Origin: Fibrobacter succinogenes
GTDB lineage: Bacteria; Fibrobacterota; Fibrobacteria; Fibrobacterales; Fibrobacteraceae
DNA length: 37,643 nucleotides
NCBI GenBank assembly: GCA_902768325.1
Contig: CACXKY010000029.1
Span: 1 to 37,643, forward strand
Direction: 5' to 3'
Below are positions 19,047 to 25,846 of the stretch, piece after piece. Within the stretch, counting starts at the first letter, position 1; every line of letters begins with the position of its first letter. Under the pieces are notes generated by a model, which saw nothing but the letters and a program-made list of their open reading frames with translations, had not been told where the DNA came from and made no database searches. The translations under genes and the position numbers were made by a program.

Positions 19047-19078
19047 CGCCTTTTTTCGATAAAAAAAGGCGTTTTTTT
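19047..19078 (+). terminator. Intrinsic terminator of cysE
   Basis: CGCCTTTTTT and AAAAAAAGGCG form a stem of about 10 bp around a short CGAT loop (19047-19071), then seven Ts. A second small hairpin CGGCC-AAA-GGCCG plus six Ts follows at 19111-19129. Confidence 0.85.
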
Positions 19079-19110
19079 GCATTCCGTTGAGAACTTTTCA
19101 CCACAAATAT

Positions 19111-19129
19111 CGGCCAAAGGCCGTTTTTT
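19111..19129 (+). terminator. Second terminator-like hairpin upstream of the GH5 gene
   Basis: 5-bp GC stem CGGCC/GGCCG with an AAA loop, followed by TTTTTT. It lies 62 nt before the GH5 start, so it could also act as an attenuator if the promoter lies upstream of it. Confidence 0.5.
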
Positions 19130-19190
19130 ATTTACTTTGCGCCCCCCGGTATTTAATTTCTTAGATAAAGGAAAATACCAAGGAGTCATA

Positions 19191-21287
19191 ATGACACGTA
19201 TCGGAATGTTTGGAATCTTTTGCGGTACGGCACTTTTCGCCGCTTCTAGCGCGTTCGCCTTACCCAAGGCGAGCGAAATCTTCCCCCTAATGGGACTCGG
19301 CTACAACATCGGCAACACGATGGAAGTGCCGGGCAACCAGGGAGGCCCGACAGGATGGGGCAATCCCTTCCCCGACGCTGCCTATGTAAAGGCCATCAAG
19401 GACGCAGGCTTCAATACCGTGCGCATCCCCTGCGCCTGGGATACCCACGCCTCCAACGGCACCATTAACGCCGGCTGGCTTGACTCCGTAAAAACCGTCG
19501 TCGATCTCGTCATCAATAACGGCATGTACGCCATCTTGAACAGCCACTGGGATGGCGGCTGGCTCGAAGACCACGTCTTTGACGGCGAAGGCTACGACAA
19601 GACCGGACTCGTGAACAGTTCCGCCAACTCGGTCGCCGCCAAGCAGGAAAACTACTGGAAGCAGATTGCCACCAAGTTCGCCGCCTACGACGAACACCTG
19701 ATTTTTGCCTCTGCCAACGAACCGGGCGTGAACGACCCGTGGAACGGCGGTGCGGACAACGGCCAGTGGGCATTCAACGAAACCCGTATGCAGGTGCTCA
19801 AGCAGTTCCATGAAGCTTGCCTCAAGGCCGTGCGCGCAACCGGCGGCAACAACGCCACCCGTATCGTAGTCGTGCAGGCCCCGCGTACCGAAATCGACAA
19901 GTCCCCGCTTCTCGCCTCCATGTACCCGGAAGACCCGGCTGGCGCAGGCTACACCATGGCCGAAGTCCATTTCTATCCCTACCAGTTCTCGCTCATGACG
20001 GGTGGCGACGAAGACTGGGGCAAGATGTTCTACTACTGGGAAGACCAGACTCCGGGTACCGACGCCGCACACACTTGCTCCGGTTCGGCCCTCGGTTCCA
20101 AGAGTTCGATCGACCAGCTGTTCAGCGGACTCAAGAGCCGCTTCTACGACAAGGGCATTCCTGTCGTGATCGGTGAAATGGGTGCCGTAAAGCGTCTCGA
20201 CGCTCTCACCGGAGACAATCTGAAATACCACTTGAAGGCACGTGCCGCATGGTATGGCTACACGGTCGCTGCCGCAAAGAAGAACGGCCTTGTCCCCTGC
20301 GTTTGGGACACCGGTGACGAAGGCAACGGCAACTTCACCATCATCCGCCGTCAGGTGGACAAGTTCGGCGGCAAAGTGGGCGACATTACCGACGTCGAAA
20401 CGTTGAACGCCATGCGCGAAGCATACGGACAGGCGGCCCTCCCGGGCAACAGCATTGATTCCATTGTCACGGAAAGCCTTTCTACCGACGACAAGGCCTT
20501 CCATATTTCTTACAAGACTATCCAGGCCGACACCGCCGAAGCGGGCACGATGAGAATCAATACGAGCGCCGACTGGAGCCAGTATGTTGCGATTTCCTTC
20601 GACATGCGTGTTGCCGGCGAATCCGCCGGCCCGTGCCTCGACCAGACGCGTGACGGCTGCAATGATTACGGCTGGGCAAGCGTTTCGCTGTTCAACATGA
20701 GCAGTGAATGGAAGTGGAACGAAGTATCGCTCGGAAACGTCTCTGACCTCGGCACCCTCAAGAACTACAAAATCGAATTCGGCGATGGAGACGGCCAGAT
20801 TGCTTTCGAAGACGCCTCCAAGATGAACGCCATCGGCATCAATGTCTACGGCACGCAATTCACCGGCGACATGTACCTCGACAACATGCTCCTGTGGAAG
20901 GCCGACGGCACCGCCGATACGCTGGAAAGCTTCAACAAGAAAAAACCCTCTTTAGAAGGCATCGCCTCGGGCGAACTGATCCAAGCCAATACCACCGGTG
21001 ACTGGGGCGCAAGCACCTCCGCCATCGCAACAACGCGCATCGCCGCCACCGGCAAGATGCTCGTGAACGTAAGGCCCGGTACAGTGAGCGCGACCTTCAC
21101 AGCTACGAAGGCCTCCCCGGCAAAGGCTATGCTCATGAACGCCATGGGCCAGGTGATTGCCCAGCAGAGCTTCACCGCGAGCAAGGGTATGAACAGCGTT
21201 GAACTCACGAACAGCTACCGCGGCCCCGCCATGCTCATCGTAAAACAGGGCAGCCAGCAGTTCGTACAGAAGATAAATCTCAAGTAA
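19191..21287 (+). CDS. Secreted GH5 cellulase with CBM-like domain and C-terminal sorting tail
   Basis: 698 aa. Endo-beta-1,4-glucanase-type enzyme. The ATG at 19191 has AAGGAG 5 nt upstream; the frame is open 38 codons further up, but that region is a terminator-rich leader. The signal peptide ends near SSAFALP. The GH5 barrel covers about 28-415, with VRIPCAW, acid/base Glu177 in the ASANEPG motif, the HFYPY histidine, and nucleophile Glu329 in VVIGEMGA. Residues about 420-575 look like a beta-sandwich carbohydrate-binding module (CBM11-like, ending in DMYLDNMLLW). Residues 621-698 (NAMGQVIAQQSF, a Gly/Ser-rich turn, then VQKINLK) resemble type IX secretion C-terminal domains. Fibrobacterota are known to encode that system. 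The GH5 subfamily is not assigned. Confidence 0.93.
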   Translation: MTRIGMFGIFCGTALFAASSAFALPKASEIFPLMGLGYNIGNTMEVPGNQGGPTGWGNPFPDAAYVKAIKDAGFNTVRIPCAWDTHASNGTINAGWLDSVKTVVDLVINNGMYAILNSHWDGGWLEDHVFDGEGYDKTGLVNSSANSVAAKQENYWKQIATKFAAYDEHLIFASANEPGVNDPWNGGADNGQWAFNETRMQVLKQFHEACLKAVRATGGNNATRIVVVQAPRTEIDKSPLLASMYPEDPAGAGYTMAEVHFYPYQFSLMTGGDEDWGKMFYYWEDQTPGTDAAHTCSGSALGSKSSIDQLFSGLKSRFYDKGIPVVIGEMGAVKRLDALTGDNLKYHLKARAAWYGYTVAAAKKNGLVPCVWDTGDEGNGNFTIIRRQVDKFGGKVGDITDVETLNAMREAYGQAALPGNSIDSIVTESLSTDDKAFHISYKTIQADTAEAGTMRINTSADWSQYVAISFDMRVAGESAGPCLDQTRDGCNDYGWASVSLFNMSSEWKWNEVSLGNVSDLGTLKNYKIEFGDGDGQIAFEDASKMNAIGINVYGTQFTGDMYLDNMLLWKADGTADTLESFNKKKPSLEGIASGELIQANTTGDWGASTSAIATTRIAATGKMLVNVRPGTVSATFTATKASPAKAMLMNAMGQVIAQQSFTASKGMNSVELTNSYRGPAMLIVKQGSQQFVQKINLK

Positions 21288-21386: not shown

Positions 21387-21414
21387 ATTGTTCGTTAGGG
21401 ATTGTTCGTTAGGG
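21387..21414. repeat. Tandem 14-bp direct repeat over the lipoprotein stop codon
   Basis: ATTGTTCGTTAGGG twice (21387-21400 and 21401-21414), followed by ATTG. The lipoprotein stop (minus strand, 21411-21409) lies in the second copy. Confidence 0.85.
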
Positions 21415-22872
21415 ATTGACTACGCCGATGCCAGTGAAGCCGAATTCGTAATCGCCTTCTGCGGCTTGGATTTTGAACCTCAGCGCCACAAGCTGTTCGG
21501 CCGCAGTTTCTGCACCGTTCCATCCTTCGGGCACTTGATTACCCGGGAACTGGAACGCACTCCAGGGATAGCAGGCCGCTACAGGCTCCTCGGACGCAGG
21601 CATGTTCACCCCGGCGAGGCCGCCCAGCGCCGTATTGACCGAGTCGCCCAAATCCAGTTCAAGCTTCATGTCCGTTTCGGAACGGTATTCCACACAGACG
21701 CCTCCCCAGTTCGAAACATCGACCGGCACGACGTCCAATGCAGAGTCAAGTGCGATTCCGACATTGATGGTAACCATCGGGTCTTGCTCCTGCTCCCCCT
21801 TCACCAAGGACGCCGTACCGCAAATGCCACCACAAGTATCCATTACCGCGCCCAGGTCACCCCCGGCATAATCCGCCACCGGCCAAATCACCTTAGACTC
21901 ACCGCCTTGATCCGAATTGACGTACCAGTATCCACTAGCCTCGACACCATCCGCCCAAACGGAATCCGAATAGAACGCCGTATTGACACGAACCTTGTGT
22001 TTTGCCGGATTCCAAAGGCTCTTGTCAACGCCCTCGGAGCTAGAAGAAAGGCTAGAGGAACTTTCCACTCCAGAACTGGACGGTACGCTCGACGAGCTCA
22101 CGTCTTCGAAGGTCGCATCATCCGCAAGCGTCCCGATATACGAAATATTGAAATCGTAGCTTCCGGTTTTGCCCTGAATCCTGAGCCGCACTGCAACCAA
22201 CTGCTTTGCAGCCTTTTTCCCGACATCGCCACTCCAGGATCTCGGAACATCGTCGAGCCAAGGAGGCAAATTGAAATCGCTCCAGCGGACACACTTGGAT
22301 TCAACCGAATCTGTCTTGGGGAACGTATAAGAGGGCAAGCCCAGCTGCAGTTCGCGATTCACCGAATCTCCCAAATCCAAATCCAGTGCAATGTTCGTTT
22401 CCGATGTATAGGTAAGGCAGAAGCCTCCCCAGCTCGAAACGTCGACCGGTACGGAATTGCCAAGGGAATCCTTCGCCAGCGTAAAGCCCACGGTCACAAA
22501 CGGATCGTAGTACAAATCGCCATGGTCCAGAACCGCGGTTCCGCAAATGCCACCGCAATTATCGATAATCGGTGCCAGCGGGTCTTCGCCATTGCCCGGT
22601 TCCACAGGCCAGACGATTTCGGAACGGCCTCCGTCCTCTTCGTCCGTTTGCGTCTCCCAGAACCAACGCCCATCGGCGACAGTCCCTTTTGGCAACACAA
22701 CAGCCAAAGCCGCCGTATTGATTCGATAAGCGCCCGACTCCGCCTTCCACAGCACGTTATCTTCTGCGTATACCGTATTCGGGTCCGTCGATGTCCCGGC
22801 CCCATTGTCTTCTGAGCACGCCGCCAAGGCAAGCGCCATGGCTCCGCACGTCAAATAGATATTATGCTTCAT
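21409..22872 (-). CDS. Secreted lipoprotein with two homologous four-cysteine domains
   Basis: 487 aa. The ATG at 22872 is chosen because GGGGAGG lies 6 nt upstream. The lipoprotein signal has lipobox L16-A-A-C19. Two tandem copies of one domain follow, about 41-254 and 287-487, joined by a serine-rich linker (259-279) of the kind common in Fibrobacter secreted proteins. Each copy has the invariant motif CGGICGTA (Cys106/110 and 347/351), a third Cys in WGG[FV]C (152, 393) and a fourth before [RP]WS[DA]F (194, 434), so two disulfides per domain are likely. The aromatic GxWxxxxD and WGG..YxSE pattern suggests a CBM11/CIA30-like beta-sandwich, but this is inference. It overlaps the upstream TIGR02147 gene by 11 bp and is probably translationally coupled. 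The function is unknown. Confidence 0.8.
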   Translation of the reverse strand: MKHNIYLTCGAMALALAACSEDNGAGTSTDPNTVYAEDNVLWKAESGAYRINTAALAVVLPKGTVADGRWFWETQTDEEDGGRSEIVWPVEPGNGEDPLAPIIDNCGGICGTAVLDHGDLYYDPFVTVGFTLAKDSLGNSVPVDVSSWGGFCLTYTSETNIALDLDLGDSVNRELQLGLPSYTFPKTDSVESKCVRWSDFNLPPWLDDVPRSWSGDVGKKAAKQLVAVRLRIQGKTGSYDFNISYIGTLADDATFEDVSSSSVPSSSGVESSSSLSSSSEGVDKSLWNPAKHKVRVNTAFYSDSVWADGVEASGYWYVNSDQGGESKVIWPVADYAGGDLGAVMDTCGGICGTASLVKGEQEQDPMVTINVGIALDSALDVVPVDVSNWGGVCVEYRSETDMKLELDLGDSVNTALGGLAGVNMPASEEPVAACYPWSAFQFPGNQVPEGWNGAETAAEQLVALRFKIQAAEGDYEFGFTGIGVVNP

Positions 22873-23707
22873 TTTTTGCCTCCCCTTTTTTTTCAACCTC
22901 TTTTGTAAGAGGGAATAATTGTAAATTCAGCCTGTAAACCTGCCTCACATCCGTGCACGATTCGGCAATCGCGACTATCCGCTTGCGGCATTCGGCCAGT
23001 TCGATCGCAATACGTTCATACGCTTCGCGGTTAACGCCCATCGTAATACCCGTAATGTCCCGTTCATCGGCCGTGAACTTGTCGAGCGCATCGATAGCGA
23101 GTTTCCCCATTTCGCGGTGCATGGAACGTATAGCGAGCGGGAGCCCCTCCTTTGACCCCACTACGGACTTTTCAGTCTGTACATAGGTGTCTCCCCCCAG
23201 ATTTTTAAGGAGTCCCGCCCGCTCCAGGAACGCAATCGATTTGCGAACCTCTAATGCCGATACCTCCTGGCAACATGCCTTAGCTATCTCCCCCGGCATG
23301 GACCCTGGCATTATCGGAGCCAATTCGCGCACCACCGGATTCTTCCAGCTCTCGTAATATTCAAATGCATCCTTGTCTATTACGCGGACCTTATGATCGA
23401 GTGCTATCGATTGCATCTGTTCCAAAAAAACTTTCTTGGCGGCATCCTTCTTGGCGTTGCCGAACTGGACCATCGCCTCGAAGTACACCACCTCGTGACC
23501 CACAAGCCCCATCGCCGTGGCCACGCGCCCCATTGTCACCTTGCTCAAGTTGGTCTTGCCTTCACAAACCATCTTGAGGTACGAAGGTGAAGAAAATCCC
23601 GCAATCTTCGCAAACTCGCGCCATGAAAAAGCAGAAGTCCTCTTGCGTTCTTCATAGTAGTCGCTCAAGAAAGCGTGGTAGTCTTGATATTCAATAATCG
23701 GTTTCAT
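22862..23707 (-). CDS. TIGR02147 family protein (DUF4423), probable regulator
   Basis: 281 aa. Family expanded in Fibrobacter succinogenes (TIGR02147) and also known from Bdellovibrio. The N-terminus EYQDYHAFLSDYYEERK followed by FSWREFAKIAGFSSPSYLKM is the family signature and contains a helix-turn-helix-like segment (about 25-55). A DUF4423-type helical region fills the rest. The ATG at 23707 is chosen because a sigma-70 promoter (TTGACT, 17 bp, TATATT) ends exactly 7 nt before it, while the frame further up is AT-rich upstream DNA. The gene overlaps the lipoprotein gene by 11 bp. A role in controlling its partner lipoprotein is inference from the pairing. Confidence 0.88.
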   Translation of the reverse strand: MKPIIEYQDYHAFLSDYYEERKRTSAFSWREFAKIAGFSSPSYLKMVCEGKTNLSKVTMGRVATAMGLVGHEVVYFEAMVQFGNAKKDAAKKVFLEQMQSIALDHKVRVIDKDAFEYYESWKNPVVRELAPIMPGSMPGEIAKACCQEVSALEVRKSIAFLERAGLLKNLGGDTYVQTEKSVVGSKEGLPLAIRSMHREMGKLAIDALDKFTADERDITGITMGVNREAYERIAIELAECRKRIVAIAESCTDVRQVYRLNLQLFPLTKEVEKKGEAKNEA

Positions 23708-23714
23708 ATAAACG

Positions 23715-23743
23715 AATATACAATCAAAAATTTTAAAAGTCAA
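23715..23743 (-). promoter_or_regulatory. Near-consensus promoter giving a leaderless TIGR02147 mRNA
   Basis: TTGACT (23743-23738), a 17-bp spacer, TATATT (23720-23715), then 7 nt to the ATG at 23707. Transcription would begin at the start codon, and there is no Shine-Dalgarno sequence. Confidence 0.75.
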
Positions 23744-23818
23744 TAGTTTATAGAACATTTTTTGCATATTTTTTAAGATTTCATCATTTTTCTTTGCCGC
23801 AAAAACATTTTTATTGTC

Positions 23819-23843
23819 TATATAGTACACCCTGTACTATATA
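23819..23843. promoter_or_regulatory. 11-bp-arm palindrome, operator candidate
   Basis: TATATAGTACA (23819-23829), CCC, TGTACTATATA (23833-23843): perfect arms with a 3-nt spacer. It lies 76 bp upstream of the -35 of the TIGR02147 promoter and adjacent to the terminator of the small-peptide gene. It lacks a T-run, so it is more like a protein-binding site than a terminator. Confidence 0.6.
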
Positions 23844-23845
23844 CG

Positions 23846-23871
23846 AAAAAGGCCCGCTTACGCGAGCCTTT
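23846..23871 (-). terminator. Intrinsic terminator of the beta-helix/small-peptide operon
   Basis: On the minus strand AAAGGCTCGC pairs with GCGGGCCTTT (one U-G pair) over a GTAA loop, followed by Ts (23871 down to 23846). Confidence 0.85.
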
Positions 23872-24046: not shown

Positions 24047-25846
24047 TTATTTCTTCAAAACCTTTTTACCATAGTAGGCGCCACGGGCCTTGGGCGCACC
24101 GTTCAGCTTGCGCCCCTTGATGTCGTAGTTGCGGTTCATAATGAACTCGCCCGTACGCACATTGATGCGGCCGATAGAGGTCGTGCCATTTTCCCCTTCG
24201 GTGCTTGCGATAACCACGTCGAGGCTTTCCGGAAGATCCGGCATCGGCTTTAACTGTCCTCCAGATTTCTGGCCAGCCTTCATGTTGAAGAGGCTTGCAC
24301 GGAACGGAGGCATCCAGGCTCCGGCACCGAGCTTTACAAATTTCCCTACCGACGAGATCTCATCTGAAGTCCGCGCGTTAAAACCATAGGCTCCAATCGC
24401 GTAATCGTCCTTTTCCCACTCATAATACCTGTCAGGGGACGAAATGGCCCAGTCGCCAATGGTATCCGACACATAATTCGCCGAAGGCAATTTCTCGATT
24501 TGAACGCCGCCCTTGATTTTCAAGTTTGCCGATTCCATTTCGAGGATATACGGCTTGTAGGCCTTGATGCAAGCCCTCTTGCCGCACATGGGCTTTTCCC
24601 TTACGTTTTCCAAAATCACCTTGTACCTGCCATCGGTTTCCTTGATACCCGCGAAATTGTAGACATTCTTGACTCCGATCAGGCTATCGACATTGACATC
24701 GAACGGGAGCTGAACCGTAGAATAGGCGCCGGTTCCCGTAACCAGGAACTTCCTGTCGAGAACAGCCGAGTCCACCACCTGCGTTTCGACCTTGTTGACG
24801 ACGCCATAATAGTCACCGTCAACGATGGCGATACTCCTGCCGTTCTTTTTAATGACCCTGATCGCCGGATAATCCTTCTTGACCATCAGTGTCTTGTCGT
24901 AAACGTACAGTTTGTAATCTGTTACGGGATTAGGTGCGTACTCAATAAATTTATTATCGATAGTACTTTTCGTAACATATTCCGATTTTCCGGAAATGGC
25001 GATTTTGGGGGTATCGTCCGACAACGAACATGCTATATCGAATTTAATATTGGCGCCACCTTCCAATTCGCCGACTACATTGATTTTTTTCCCATCGGAC
25101 AAAACAAGCGCATTCTGTATGAACTTCAGATTTCCGGAAACATTGACATCATCCAAGGCTTCCACACCAATGCCGTTTCCCACAACGGTTCCCCCAGAAA
25201 GGCTCACCTTCGAGCCCTCGTTTACAACCAAGCCCCTACTTGAATTATCCTGAATATAGCCTCCCGACACCGACACCGTAGAGCCGGCATAGGCGTTTAC
25301 ACCGATTTTATCATCAATGACCGTTCCGTCCCGCATGATAAAGGAGCCGTATACACTAATCACGGACTGAGCCACATCGTATCGGCTTCCGTAAAGCATT
25401 CCACCTTCCAAAATAAAGGTTCCTCTTTCCTTAACGAGAACCGTCGACGCCGATAAGGGCTCCGCCTCGTGACCTCCCTTGATAATGGCACGGTAACCTT
25501 GCTCGTTTCGAATCAGAAGCTTCCCTTCAACGACAAAAACGCACCCATTCTTGAGATCTTGCTCAAGAGAACGATCTAAACCGACGCCATTAAGGTCTAT
25601 GACCACTTCGGCATCGAGTGGAATGTAAAGATACCCATCCAACTGGAAATCTGCATAACCATTTAGCTTGTAGTATCCCGATTTCATCGTTCGATAGGAG
25701 CTTTTATCGCTGTAGGAAACAGGCGTAAAGGCGCCCAAATCCGCCACATCGAGGACGTCTACGTGTTTTAGCGGTTTTTCAAACCAATTATCTTGTGCAA
25801 AAGCCCCCAAAGGCAAAAGCAGGAGCGCCGCGAGCAGTTTTTTCAT
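24047..25846 (-). CDS. Secreted beta-helix-like protein with C-terminal sorting-like tail
   Basis: 599 aa. The signal peptide is MKKLLAALLLLPLGAFA. Residues about 70-270 carry repeating short strands with G and V/I alternation (GTFILEGGML, GSFIMRDGTV, STVSVSGGYI, SKVSLSGGTV), the look of a right-handed parallel beta-helix. A less repetitive middle part follows. The tail 559-599 has MNRNYDIKGRKL and ends GAYYGKKVLKK, resembling type IX sorting domains and close to the FDLRGK tail of the GH9 enzyme. GGGAG precedes the ATG. Coding DNA here is visibly richer in A/T than in the neighbours, which hints at recent acquisition or different selection. No catalytic motif is recognised; it may be an adhesin or polysaccharide-binding surface protein. 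Confidence 0.75.
   Translation of the reverse strand: MKKLLAALLLLPLGAFAQDNWFEKPLKHVDVLDVADLGAFTPVSYSDKSSYRTMKSGYYKLNGYADFQLDGYLYIPLDAEVVIDLNGVGLDRSLEQDLKNGCVFVVEGKLLIRNEQGYRAIIKGGHEAEPLSASTVLVKERGTFILEGGMLYGSRYDVAQSVISVYGSFIMRDGTVIDDKIGVNAYAGSTVSVSGGYIQDNSSRGLVVNEGSKVSLSGGTVVGNGIGVEALDDVNVSGNLKFIQNALVLSDGKKINVVGELEGGANIKFDIACSLSDDTPKIAISGKSEYVTKSTIDNKFIEYAPNPVTDYKLYVYDKTLMVKKDYPAIRVIKKNGRSIAIVDGDYYGVVNKVETQVVDSAVLDRKFLVTGTGAYSTVQLPFDVNVDSLIGVKNVYNFAGIKETDGRYKVILENVREKPMCGKRACIKAYKPYILEMESANLKIKGGVQIEKLPSANYVSDTIGDWAISSPDRYYEWEKDDYAIGAYGFNARTSDEISSVGKFVKLGAGAWMPPFRASLFNMKAGQKSGGQLKPMPDLPESLDVVIASTEGENGTTSIGRINVRTGEFIMNRNYDIKGRKLNGAPKARGAYYGKKVLKK

Follow-up and report, generated by a model that had tools for sequence, protein, structure and literature searches.

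A regulator gene overlaps a lipoprotein gene in Fibrobacter succinogenes

We analyzed a stretch of 37,643 nucleotides from Fibrobacter succinogenes (GenBank assembly GCA_902768325.1, contig CACXKY010000029.1, positions 1 to 37,643 of the forward strand; hereafter the window), in which the gene for a regulator of the TIGR02147/DUF4423 type is followed by a gene for a lipoprotein. The source genome, which is 85.5% complete, has been assembled as a draft of 2.9 Mb on 231 contigs. The regulator gene (22862-23707, minus strand), assigned by profile matches, encodes 281 amino acids, and the lipoprotein gene (21409-22872, minus strand) encodes 487 amino acids. Our central observation is that the pair represents a two-gene unit, of which the genomes of Fibrobacter and its relatives contain between one and dozens of copies each.

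The two genes overlap by 11 bp (22862-22872), and a GGGGAGG ribosome-binding site for the lipoprotein gene lies within the 3' end of the regulator gene (22879-22885, minus strand), both as described in the initial annotation, which had been made from the sequence alone. By our own lipobox rule the lipoprotein has a signal peptide and the lipobox LAAC with its cysteine at residue 19. The regulator matches TIGR02147 (Fsuc_second) over residues 1-269 with 309.3 bits (cut-off 50) and PF14394 (DUF4423) over residues 105-267 with 91.6 bits (gathering cut-off 30); its layout is a putative helix-turn-helix (HTH) part (residues 1-105) and a DUF4423 half (residues 105-267). The Pfam gathering score for HTH_3 (XRE type) was not reached (16.3 versus 23 bits). 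A structural model of the regulator has a predicted local distance difference test (pLDDT) score of 63 overall, being confident mainly for residues 1-105 and mostly poor beyond residue 105. The top Foldseek matches of its N-terminal half are HTH proteins of the XRE type, all of them weak (E 0.027 or worse), and the predicted fold shows weak similarity to C.BclI, C.AhdI and C.Esp1396I (E 0.03-0.2). A search for solved relatives of the regulator profile returned one weak match (E 0.34).

TIGR02147 regulators are followed by lipoproteins across genomes and families

The initial annotation had described TIGR02147 as a paralogous family, and the source genome indeed holds 38 matches above the cut-off, some clipped by contig ends, plus one weak fragment. 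At the 35 loci with downstream DNA, the next same-strand gene begins -14 to +72 bp from the regulator end. It contains a lipobox in all 35 when read by eye, and in 31 of 35 according to a self-made automatic rule applied to the gene behind the regulator. We then extended the rule to 123 loci from the source genome, other Fibrobacter and four further families, where it recognized 110, compared with 31 of 200 background open reading frames (ORFs) of the source genome. The commonest overlap between the two genes is 4 bp (49 of the 110 loci). Among the 13 loci missed by the rule, a lipobox could be read directly in 10 and via another frame in L070; L096 is ambiguous and L120 has none. For three genomes of other genera (G032, G038 and G040) the rule recognized the partner of 35 of 45 regulators, five of which are also counted among the 123 loci, and reading by eye added 8 of the remaining 10. 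In eleven genomes that hold no more than two copies, 11 of 12 loci were recognized by rule and the twelfth by eye; in the outer families the rule recognized 15 of 29, and reading by eye added 11 more.

Moreover, we derived a profile from the residues surrounding the lipobox cysteine of 52 lipoproteins of the genus, none of them from the source genome, and searched it in all three frames behind every regulator stop codon with a threshold of 5 bits. At least 5 bits were reached at all 34 assessable loci of the source genome and at 88 of 92 further loci that we had assigned to the same family, a set which includes most or all of the training loci as well as L202 (named only Fibrobacteres bacterium). 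Over 13 families the count is 191 of 241 loci, against 34 of 902 control stops, taken from other open frames at least 250 codons long; many of these control frames are probably not genes, and several of the 34 positives lie behind a tagged lipoprotein of their own operon. The lowest values came from groups f9 (1/5) and f3 (21/53), in which the tag has drifted, and reading the 50 low scorers by eye revealed a lipobox in 41. The initial annotation had proposed, from a single locus, a coupling of the family to dedicated lipoproteins, to be judged by listing the genes behind TIGR02147 members and to be given up if there were no recurrent neighbour or if the pair were split in relatives. The listing shows enrichment of lipoproteins, most paralogs are followed by genes in this order, and neither ground for giving the proposal up applies, so that the coupling is strongly supported well beyond the one locus.

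TIGR02147 itself was found in 140 of 150 genomes sampled evenly across the phylum; it was not found in the 8 sampled genomes of genus g11 and the 2 of genus g8. A contig search with the window regulator within the phylum returned 20 loci, of which 19 are named Fibrobacter and one Fibrobacteres bacterium. On one contig (C87, locus L130) three regulator-lipoprotein pairs stand in tandem, suggesting that the pair duplicates as a unit, and in several relatives two pairs lie side by side. Ten genomes of genera g19 and g23 with a single TIGR02147 copy (L249-L258) retain the adjoining lipoprotein with a nearly fixed tag, AGGTSEETN; nine of these lipoproteins, measured by the rule, have 212-231 amino acids. 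These loci offer a minimal system for experiments.

In the literature searched, which left out most subscription journals, we found neither a description of the regulator-lipoprotein pairing nor a paper that mentions TIGR02147 by name. The pairing is not described in the accessible parts of PMC12546842, PMC6851124, PMC4619616, PMC4704652 and PMC4159848, and for DUF4423 the same literature yielded a table entry only (PMC12546842, accessible part). Bdellovibrio, too, has DUF4423 proteins according to that paper.

The partner lipoproteins share a tag behind the lipobox cysteine

The feature that unites the partner proteins is a short tag behind the lipobox cysteine which approximates AGG-x-x-E-x-x-N. 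In a global alignment of 33 partner lipoproteins of the source genome the cysteine is present in all rows, the consensus reads ACS-x5-AGG-x-x-E-x-x-N, and little else is common. The window lipoprotein carries the version AGTSTDPNT (residues 25-33; 22774-22800, minus strand), which begins 6 residues past the cysteine. A profile of the post-cysteine region scored at least 5 bits in 30 of 31 regulator partners and in 4 of 31 other lipoproteins of the same genome; the best two of these four are L127, which is preceded by a piece of a regulator where the contig ends, and L146, a true orphan. A strict regular expression for the tag had recovered 53 of the 123 loci only and was replaced by the profile made from other genomes.

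We also asked whether the CGGICGTA domain type of the window lipoprotein explains its neighbour. Among 29 loci fetched with this domain, 15 have a regulator, and the profile detects the tag in 14 of these; in the fifteenth, L155, it can be recognized by eye only (GCSGTSTEPNT). In contrast, 11 of the 14 domain loci that lack a regulator in the fetched stretch, which upstream is short (366-709 bp) in five of them (L169, L173, L175, L180 and L181), score below 5 bits. Two of the remaining three, L161 and L162, are tagged and correspond to the second lipoprotein behind the regulator in the related locus L194; in genome G014 such a tagged second lipoprotein has the regulator about 2.1 kb upstream of it. 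As 11 of 14 regulator-free domain loci have no tag, we rejected the domain as an explanation of the neighbour.

Candidate operators upstream of the regulator change in concert

The regulator gene is preceded by a near-consensus promoter, TTGACT-N17-TATATT. Its -35 box TTGACT (23738-23743, minus strand) is also present in relatives, and its -10 box TATATT (23715-23720, minus strand) ends 7 nt before the start codon, a leaderless-type geometry from which a leaderless transcript is predicted, in agreement with the initial annotation. Just upstream of the -35 box lies a promoter-proximal half-site, TGTTCTATAA (23748-23757, minus strand), which takes the form TGTACTATAA in several relatives. Further upstream we found a candidate distal operator, a perfect 11-nt inverted repeat which reads TATATAGTACA-CCC-TGTACTATATA on the plus strand (23819-23843, assigned to the minus strand; arms 100% complementary). 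Its gene-side arm is 72 bp away from the half-site, and its 21-nt core occurs once in the genome when up to 3 mismatches are allowed.

A comparison of 34 distinct upstream regions of relatives shows that these elements are conserved in most close relatives. In a close group of 18 regions, window included, the palindrome arms match at 8 or 9 of 9 positions and the half-site is 71-72 bp away in 15. In a sister group of 11 regions both the palindrome and the half-site contain a different word, GTATCAT, with 73 bp between them in 10; the eleventh member, L197, has a weaker palindrome 63 bp from the half-site, about one helical turn less. The concerted change of palindrome and half-site fits one protein reading both, and the near-constant spacing suggests that one complex holds the two sites. 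The spacing also emerged from a scan of 60 spacings (45-104 bp) over 22 upstream regions of the source genome, in which 70, 71 and 72 bp rank first to third (means 12.9, 12.6 and 12.3; mean of all spacings 11.7, standard deviation 0.39). In a permutation test for which the palindrome was chosen without regard to the half-site, own pairs of palindrome and half-site beat swapped ones, both for the 17 loci whose arms match at 7 or more of 9 positions (19/2000 permutations) and for the 8 loci whose arms match at 8 or more (1/2000).

Other subfamilies have words of their own. GTGTTC is found upstream in 21 of 21 members of one, many with two distal copies 11 bp apart, TTTGAGT in 4 of 4 of another, where it spans the core promoter, and CCACAACG in 5 of 7 of a third. 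At NVYAYYN-type loci (L150, L098, L055 and others) the GTGTTC repeats are often followed by a proximal copy 62-63 or 73-74 bp further on, two distances that again differ by about one helical turn. The leaderless-type promoter pattern is present in all 18 regions of the close group, in all 11 of the sister group and, in two more subfamilies, in 4 of 4 and 16 of 38. A universal three-site operator was considered and dropped, since an automatic search for it was clean in part of the loci only and many rows were AT-rich chance matches or terminators; the case for operators therefore rests on the cross-species footprints, the spacing scan and the permutation test. The suggestion of the initial annotation that the family might regulate dedicated lipoproteins gains indirect support on the side of regulation: in each of several subfamilies the regulator gene is preceded by a conserved, repeated word peculiar to that subfamily, and the N-terminal half of the regulator has a weak fold similarity to HTH proteins that regulate their own genes.

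The DUF4423 half co-varies with the partner lipoprotein

To relate the two halves of the regulator to its partner, we compared pairwise distances between paralogous regulators with those between the partner lipoproteins. In windows of 60 residues the correlation with both the tag and the rest of the lipoprotein climbs from the HTH part into DUF4423 and drops at the end; a separate genus shows the same rise and a smaller terminal fall. For the tag, residues 110-240 correlate better than residues 1-100, both in the source genome (34 pairs, r 0.349 versus 0.220) and in G032 (31 pairs, one regulator without lipoprotein having been dropped; r 0.458 versus 0.155), with bootstrap intervals of the difference between DUF4423 and HTH of 0.031-0.212 and 0.147-0.441, respectively. 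The lipoprotein rest behaves likewise (0.491 for DUF4423 versus 0.337 for HTH in the source genome, 0.482 versus 0.313 in G032). After removal of the lipoprotein rest, partial correlations between tag and DUF4423 of 0.214 and 0.302 persist. Thus, the DUF4423 half tracks the partner lipoprotein better than the putative DNA-binding half does in two genera, a link that fits sensing without proving it. Linkage alone is disfavoured, because the correlation falls in the last segment of the regulator, which is nearest to the lipoprotein gene; as the final windows hold fewer and worse-aligned residues, we take this fall as support and not as proof.

The outer parts of the lipoproteins and the neighbourhood of the pair

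Two domains with the CGGICGTA motif and four matching cysteines each, joined by a serine linker, had been noted in the initial annotation, and the lipoprotein sequence confirms them: domain 1 (22099-22752), a mostly serine-rich linker (22003-22098) and domain 2 (21412-22002), which is 43% identical to domain 1 (all minus strand). In 49 copies of the domain, the two from the window included, two of the cysteines are invariant and two are present in at least 90%. Structure prediction for one such domain had been recommended in the same place. A model based on the 49 sequences (pLDDT 90) gave a predicted CBM11/CIA30-like beta-sandwich, with Z scores of 13.7 to NDUFAF1/CIA30 (7zkq) and 12.8 to CBM11 (1v0a), the next families reaching 10-11. 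The likeness to CBM11 and CIA30/NDUFAF1 concerns the predicted fold; in sequence the domain differs, with 11-13% identity, and the lipoprotein matches no Pfam family at E <=1 and hence neither the CBM11 nor the CIA30 profile. It likewise has no NCBIfam match at E <=1, TIGR02145 (Fib_succ_major) included, and no solved-structure relative was found for it. Sugar binding by this domain is a guess based on the predicted fold.

Beyond the tag, the partner proteins vary and often contain Fib_succ_major, lectin-like or carboxypeptidase-regulatory-like domains. The 33 partners of the source genome include 11 with CarboxypepD_reg, 9 with Fib_succ_major, which the window lipoprotein does not match, and 3 with Laminin_G_3, and the 35 partners from other genera include 20 with CarboxypepD_reg and 8 with Laminin_G_3. 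Fold and domain content together suggest that the partner lipoproteins bind glycans, and they are probably located on the cell surface. According to the parts of the reports available to us, four carboxypeptidase-regulatory-like lipoproteins were lower on cellulose than on glucose in the F. succinogenes S85 proteome (PMC6851124), and Fib_succ_major (TIGR02145) has been proposed as cellulose-binding or cohesin-like (PMC4704652).

The pair is flanked by a gene for a GH5 (glycoside hydrolase family 5) cellulase (19077-21287, plus strand), which is convergent to it and whose product weakly matches a type IX sorting tail (E 0.056), and, upstream, by a gene for a beta-helix-like protein with weak Pfam matches (24047-25846, minus strand), which is followed by a terminator-like inverted repeat (23848-23871). 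PADLOC, which detects defence systems, gave no match for the regulator or the lipoprotein.

A probable self-regulated operon with a dedicated lipoprotein

These sequence comparisons make it likely that the window pair belongs to a phylum-wide family of two-gene operons, each of which is self-regulated and has one dedicated lipoprotein. The HTH half would bind a distal site specific to its subfamily, here the palindrome, and the matching half-site beside the -35 box, one complex holding both. In this way the regulator would set the level of its own short operon, and the overlapping genes would rise and fall together. In the window subfamily the message would start at the ATG of the regulator, and the lipoprotein would be translated from the site inside the overlapping regulator gene. 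The second gene would consist of a standard N-terminal part, with lipobox and AGG-x-x-E-x-x-N tag, and of an outer part that varies from unit to unit and is often glycan-binding-like. Finally, the DUF4423 half would read a signal tied to its lipoprotein, be it the precursor, a ligand or a cell state. Regulation may occur by repression, as suggested by the words that span the core promoter in one subfamily. The computed basis of this scheme consists of the pairing, the tag, the operator words and their concerted change, the single copy of the operator and the correlation between DUF4423 and the lipoprotein; from these we infer DNA binding, autoregulation and its sign, surface location, glycan binding and signal reading by DUF4423.

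A number of observations weigh against it. Nine of the 241 loci have no clear lipoprotein behind the regulator on reading (L243, L244, L245, L268 and L279, the latter two both from genome G057, L264, L228, one regulator of L239, and L096); three of these, from three genomes, form a regulator subfamily that starts with K[RK]IFEYLDY (L243, L244 and L245, of which L243 covers the L120 locus and more of its flanks). Conversely, no regulator precedes the tagged lipoprotein L146 (235-1888, minus strand, contig C123), whose tag resembles those of regulator-partnered lipoproteins of G001, G004 and G014 (L148, L041 and L039), and L169 scores as tagged (14.8 bits) without a regulator in the 709 bp seen, its tag being poor by eye. 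Within the close group the palindrome is weaker in L186 and L196 and changed in L158 (3/18), other subfamilies show no clear peak in the spacing scan, and the three-site search yields no clean operator for most regulators of the source genome. The leaderless promoter pattern is restricted to some subfamilies, with counts of 1/21, 0/7, 0/7 and 4/52 elsewhere. Moreover, GTATCAT is also present upstream of 13 of 38 further paralogs, and the switches may therefore cross-talk. Finally, the correlation between DUF4423 and the lipoprotein could stem from shared descent of a linked block.

Of the alternatives, the one that survives best takes the tag as a sorting or surface-export signal of a lipoprotein class and lets the regulator sense an unrelated small molecule or cell state; we regard it as possible without favouring it. 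The tag does lie close behind the cysteine, as the lipoprotein export signal (LES) of Bacteroidetes does in the available part of its description (PMC5080379), but it matches neither K-(D/E)2 nor Q-A-(D/E)2, most other lipoproteins of the same genome lack it (27/31 below 5 bits), and it follows DUF4423.

It is plausible that the regulator senses its own lipoprotein. In a specific version, which we consider doubtful, DUF4423 would bind the tag of the unexported precursor, gauge how much lipoprotein awaits export and adjust the operon. The tag is mostly limited to regulator partners (30/31 versus 4/31), it correlates with DUF4423 above HTH even once the lipoprotein rest is removed, and the gene overlap would bring both nascent chains to one place; however, the correlation of the lipoprotein rest with DUF4423 is no lower than that of the tag. 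If extended to the whole family, this version would give each cell a bank of up to several dozen self-reporting circuits, in which DUF4423 binds the cytoplasmic tag and couples the operator to the export or stock of that one lipoprotein, a possibility we hold to be rather unlikely.

We also think it doubtful that duplication alone accounts for the pairs, that is, that the genes were copied as a block and the regulator is a local autorepressor without matched sensing. Such copying would account for the tandem pairs, three in a row on C87 and two side by side in several relatives, but conserved operators change in concert, the tag is kept across families while the lipoprotein rest diverges, and both pair and tag persist where a genome holds no more than two copies (12 loci from 11 genomes, 11 of them recognized by rule and the last by eye). 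Chance adjacency without a functional unit, which has the nine exceptional loci and nothing else in its favour, is excluded for practical purposes, because most paralogs show this gene order, 191 of 241 loci stand against 34 of 902 control stops, and the pairing extends to other families.

The self-regulated operon would be of interest in several respects. For TIGR02147, a large paralogous family of Fibrobacter, the analysis provides a partner gene, the likely DNA target and a division of labour between the two halves that can be tested. Through its link to Fib_succ_major proteins the family also offers a way into the question of how a rumen fibre degrader selects its envelope proteins. A lipoprotein that itself served as the signal would be a new way of controlling an envelope protein.

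Comparison with known systems

The tag resembles the Bacteroidetes LES in being a short signal behind the lipobox cysteine, where the LES, in the part of its description available to us, reads K-(D/E)2 or Q-A-(D/E)2 (PMC5080379). It differs in sequence and in being tied to a neighbouring regulator; in the window lipoprotein the residues after cysteine 19, SEDNGAGTSTDPNT, do not show the LES pattern.

The CI repressor of phage lambda is made from a leaderless mRNA, and an operator lies next to the -35 box of the promoter that drives its gene. Our regulator weakly matches its HTH fold, but CI has neither DUF4423 nor a lipoprotein partner, and the promoter of the window regulator is the near-consensus one.

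By analogy, the nearest known logic is that of the controller (C) proteins of type II restriction-modification systems, although the unit itself is not one of them. C.Csp231I, in the part of the report available to us, is an HTH protein that regulates its own gene, which is preceded by inverted repeats and has a leaderless message (PMC4824078). In the window one palindrome and one half-site would be the putative counterparts of such repeats, the promoter geometry would fit a leaderless message, and the C proteins C.BclI, C.AhdI and C.Esp1396I are among the weak fold matches of the N-terminal half. C proteins, however, are short and consist of the HTH only, whereas the regulator has 281 amino acids and a DUF4423 half; the distal and proximal sites of the unit are about 72 bp apart; and where C proteins are partnered with a restriction enzyme, the partner here is a lipoprotein.

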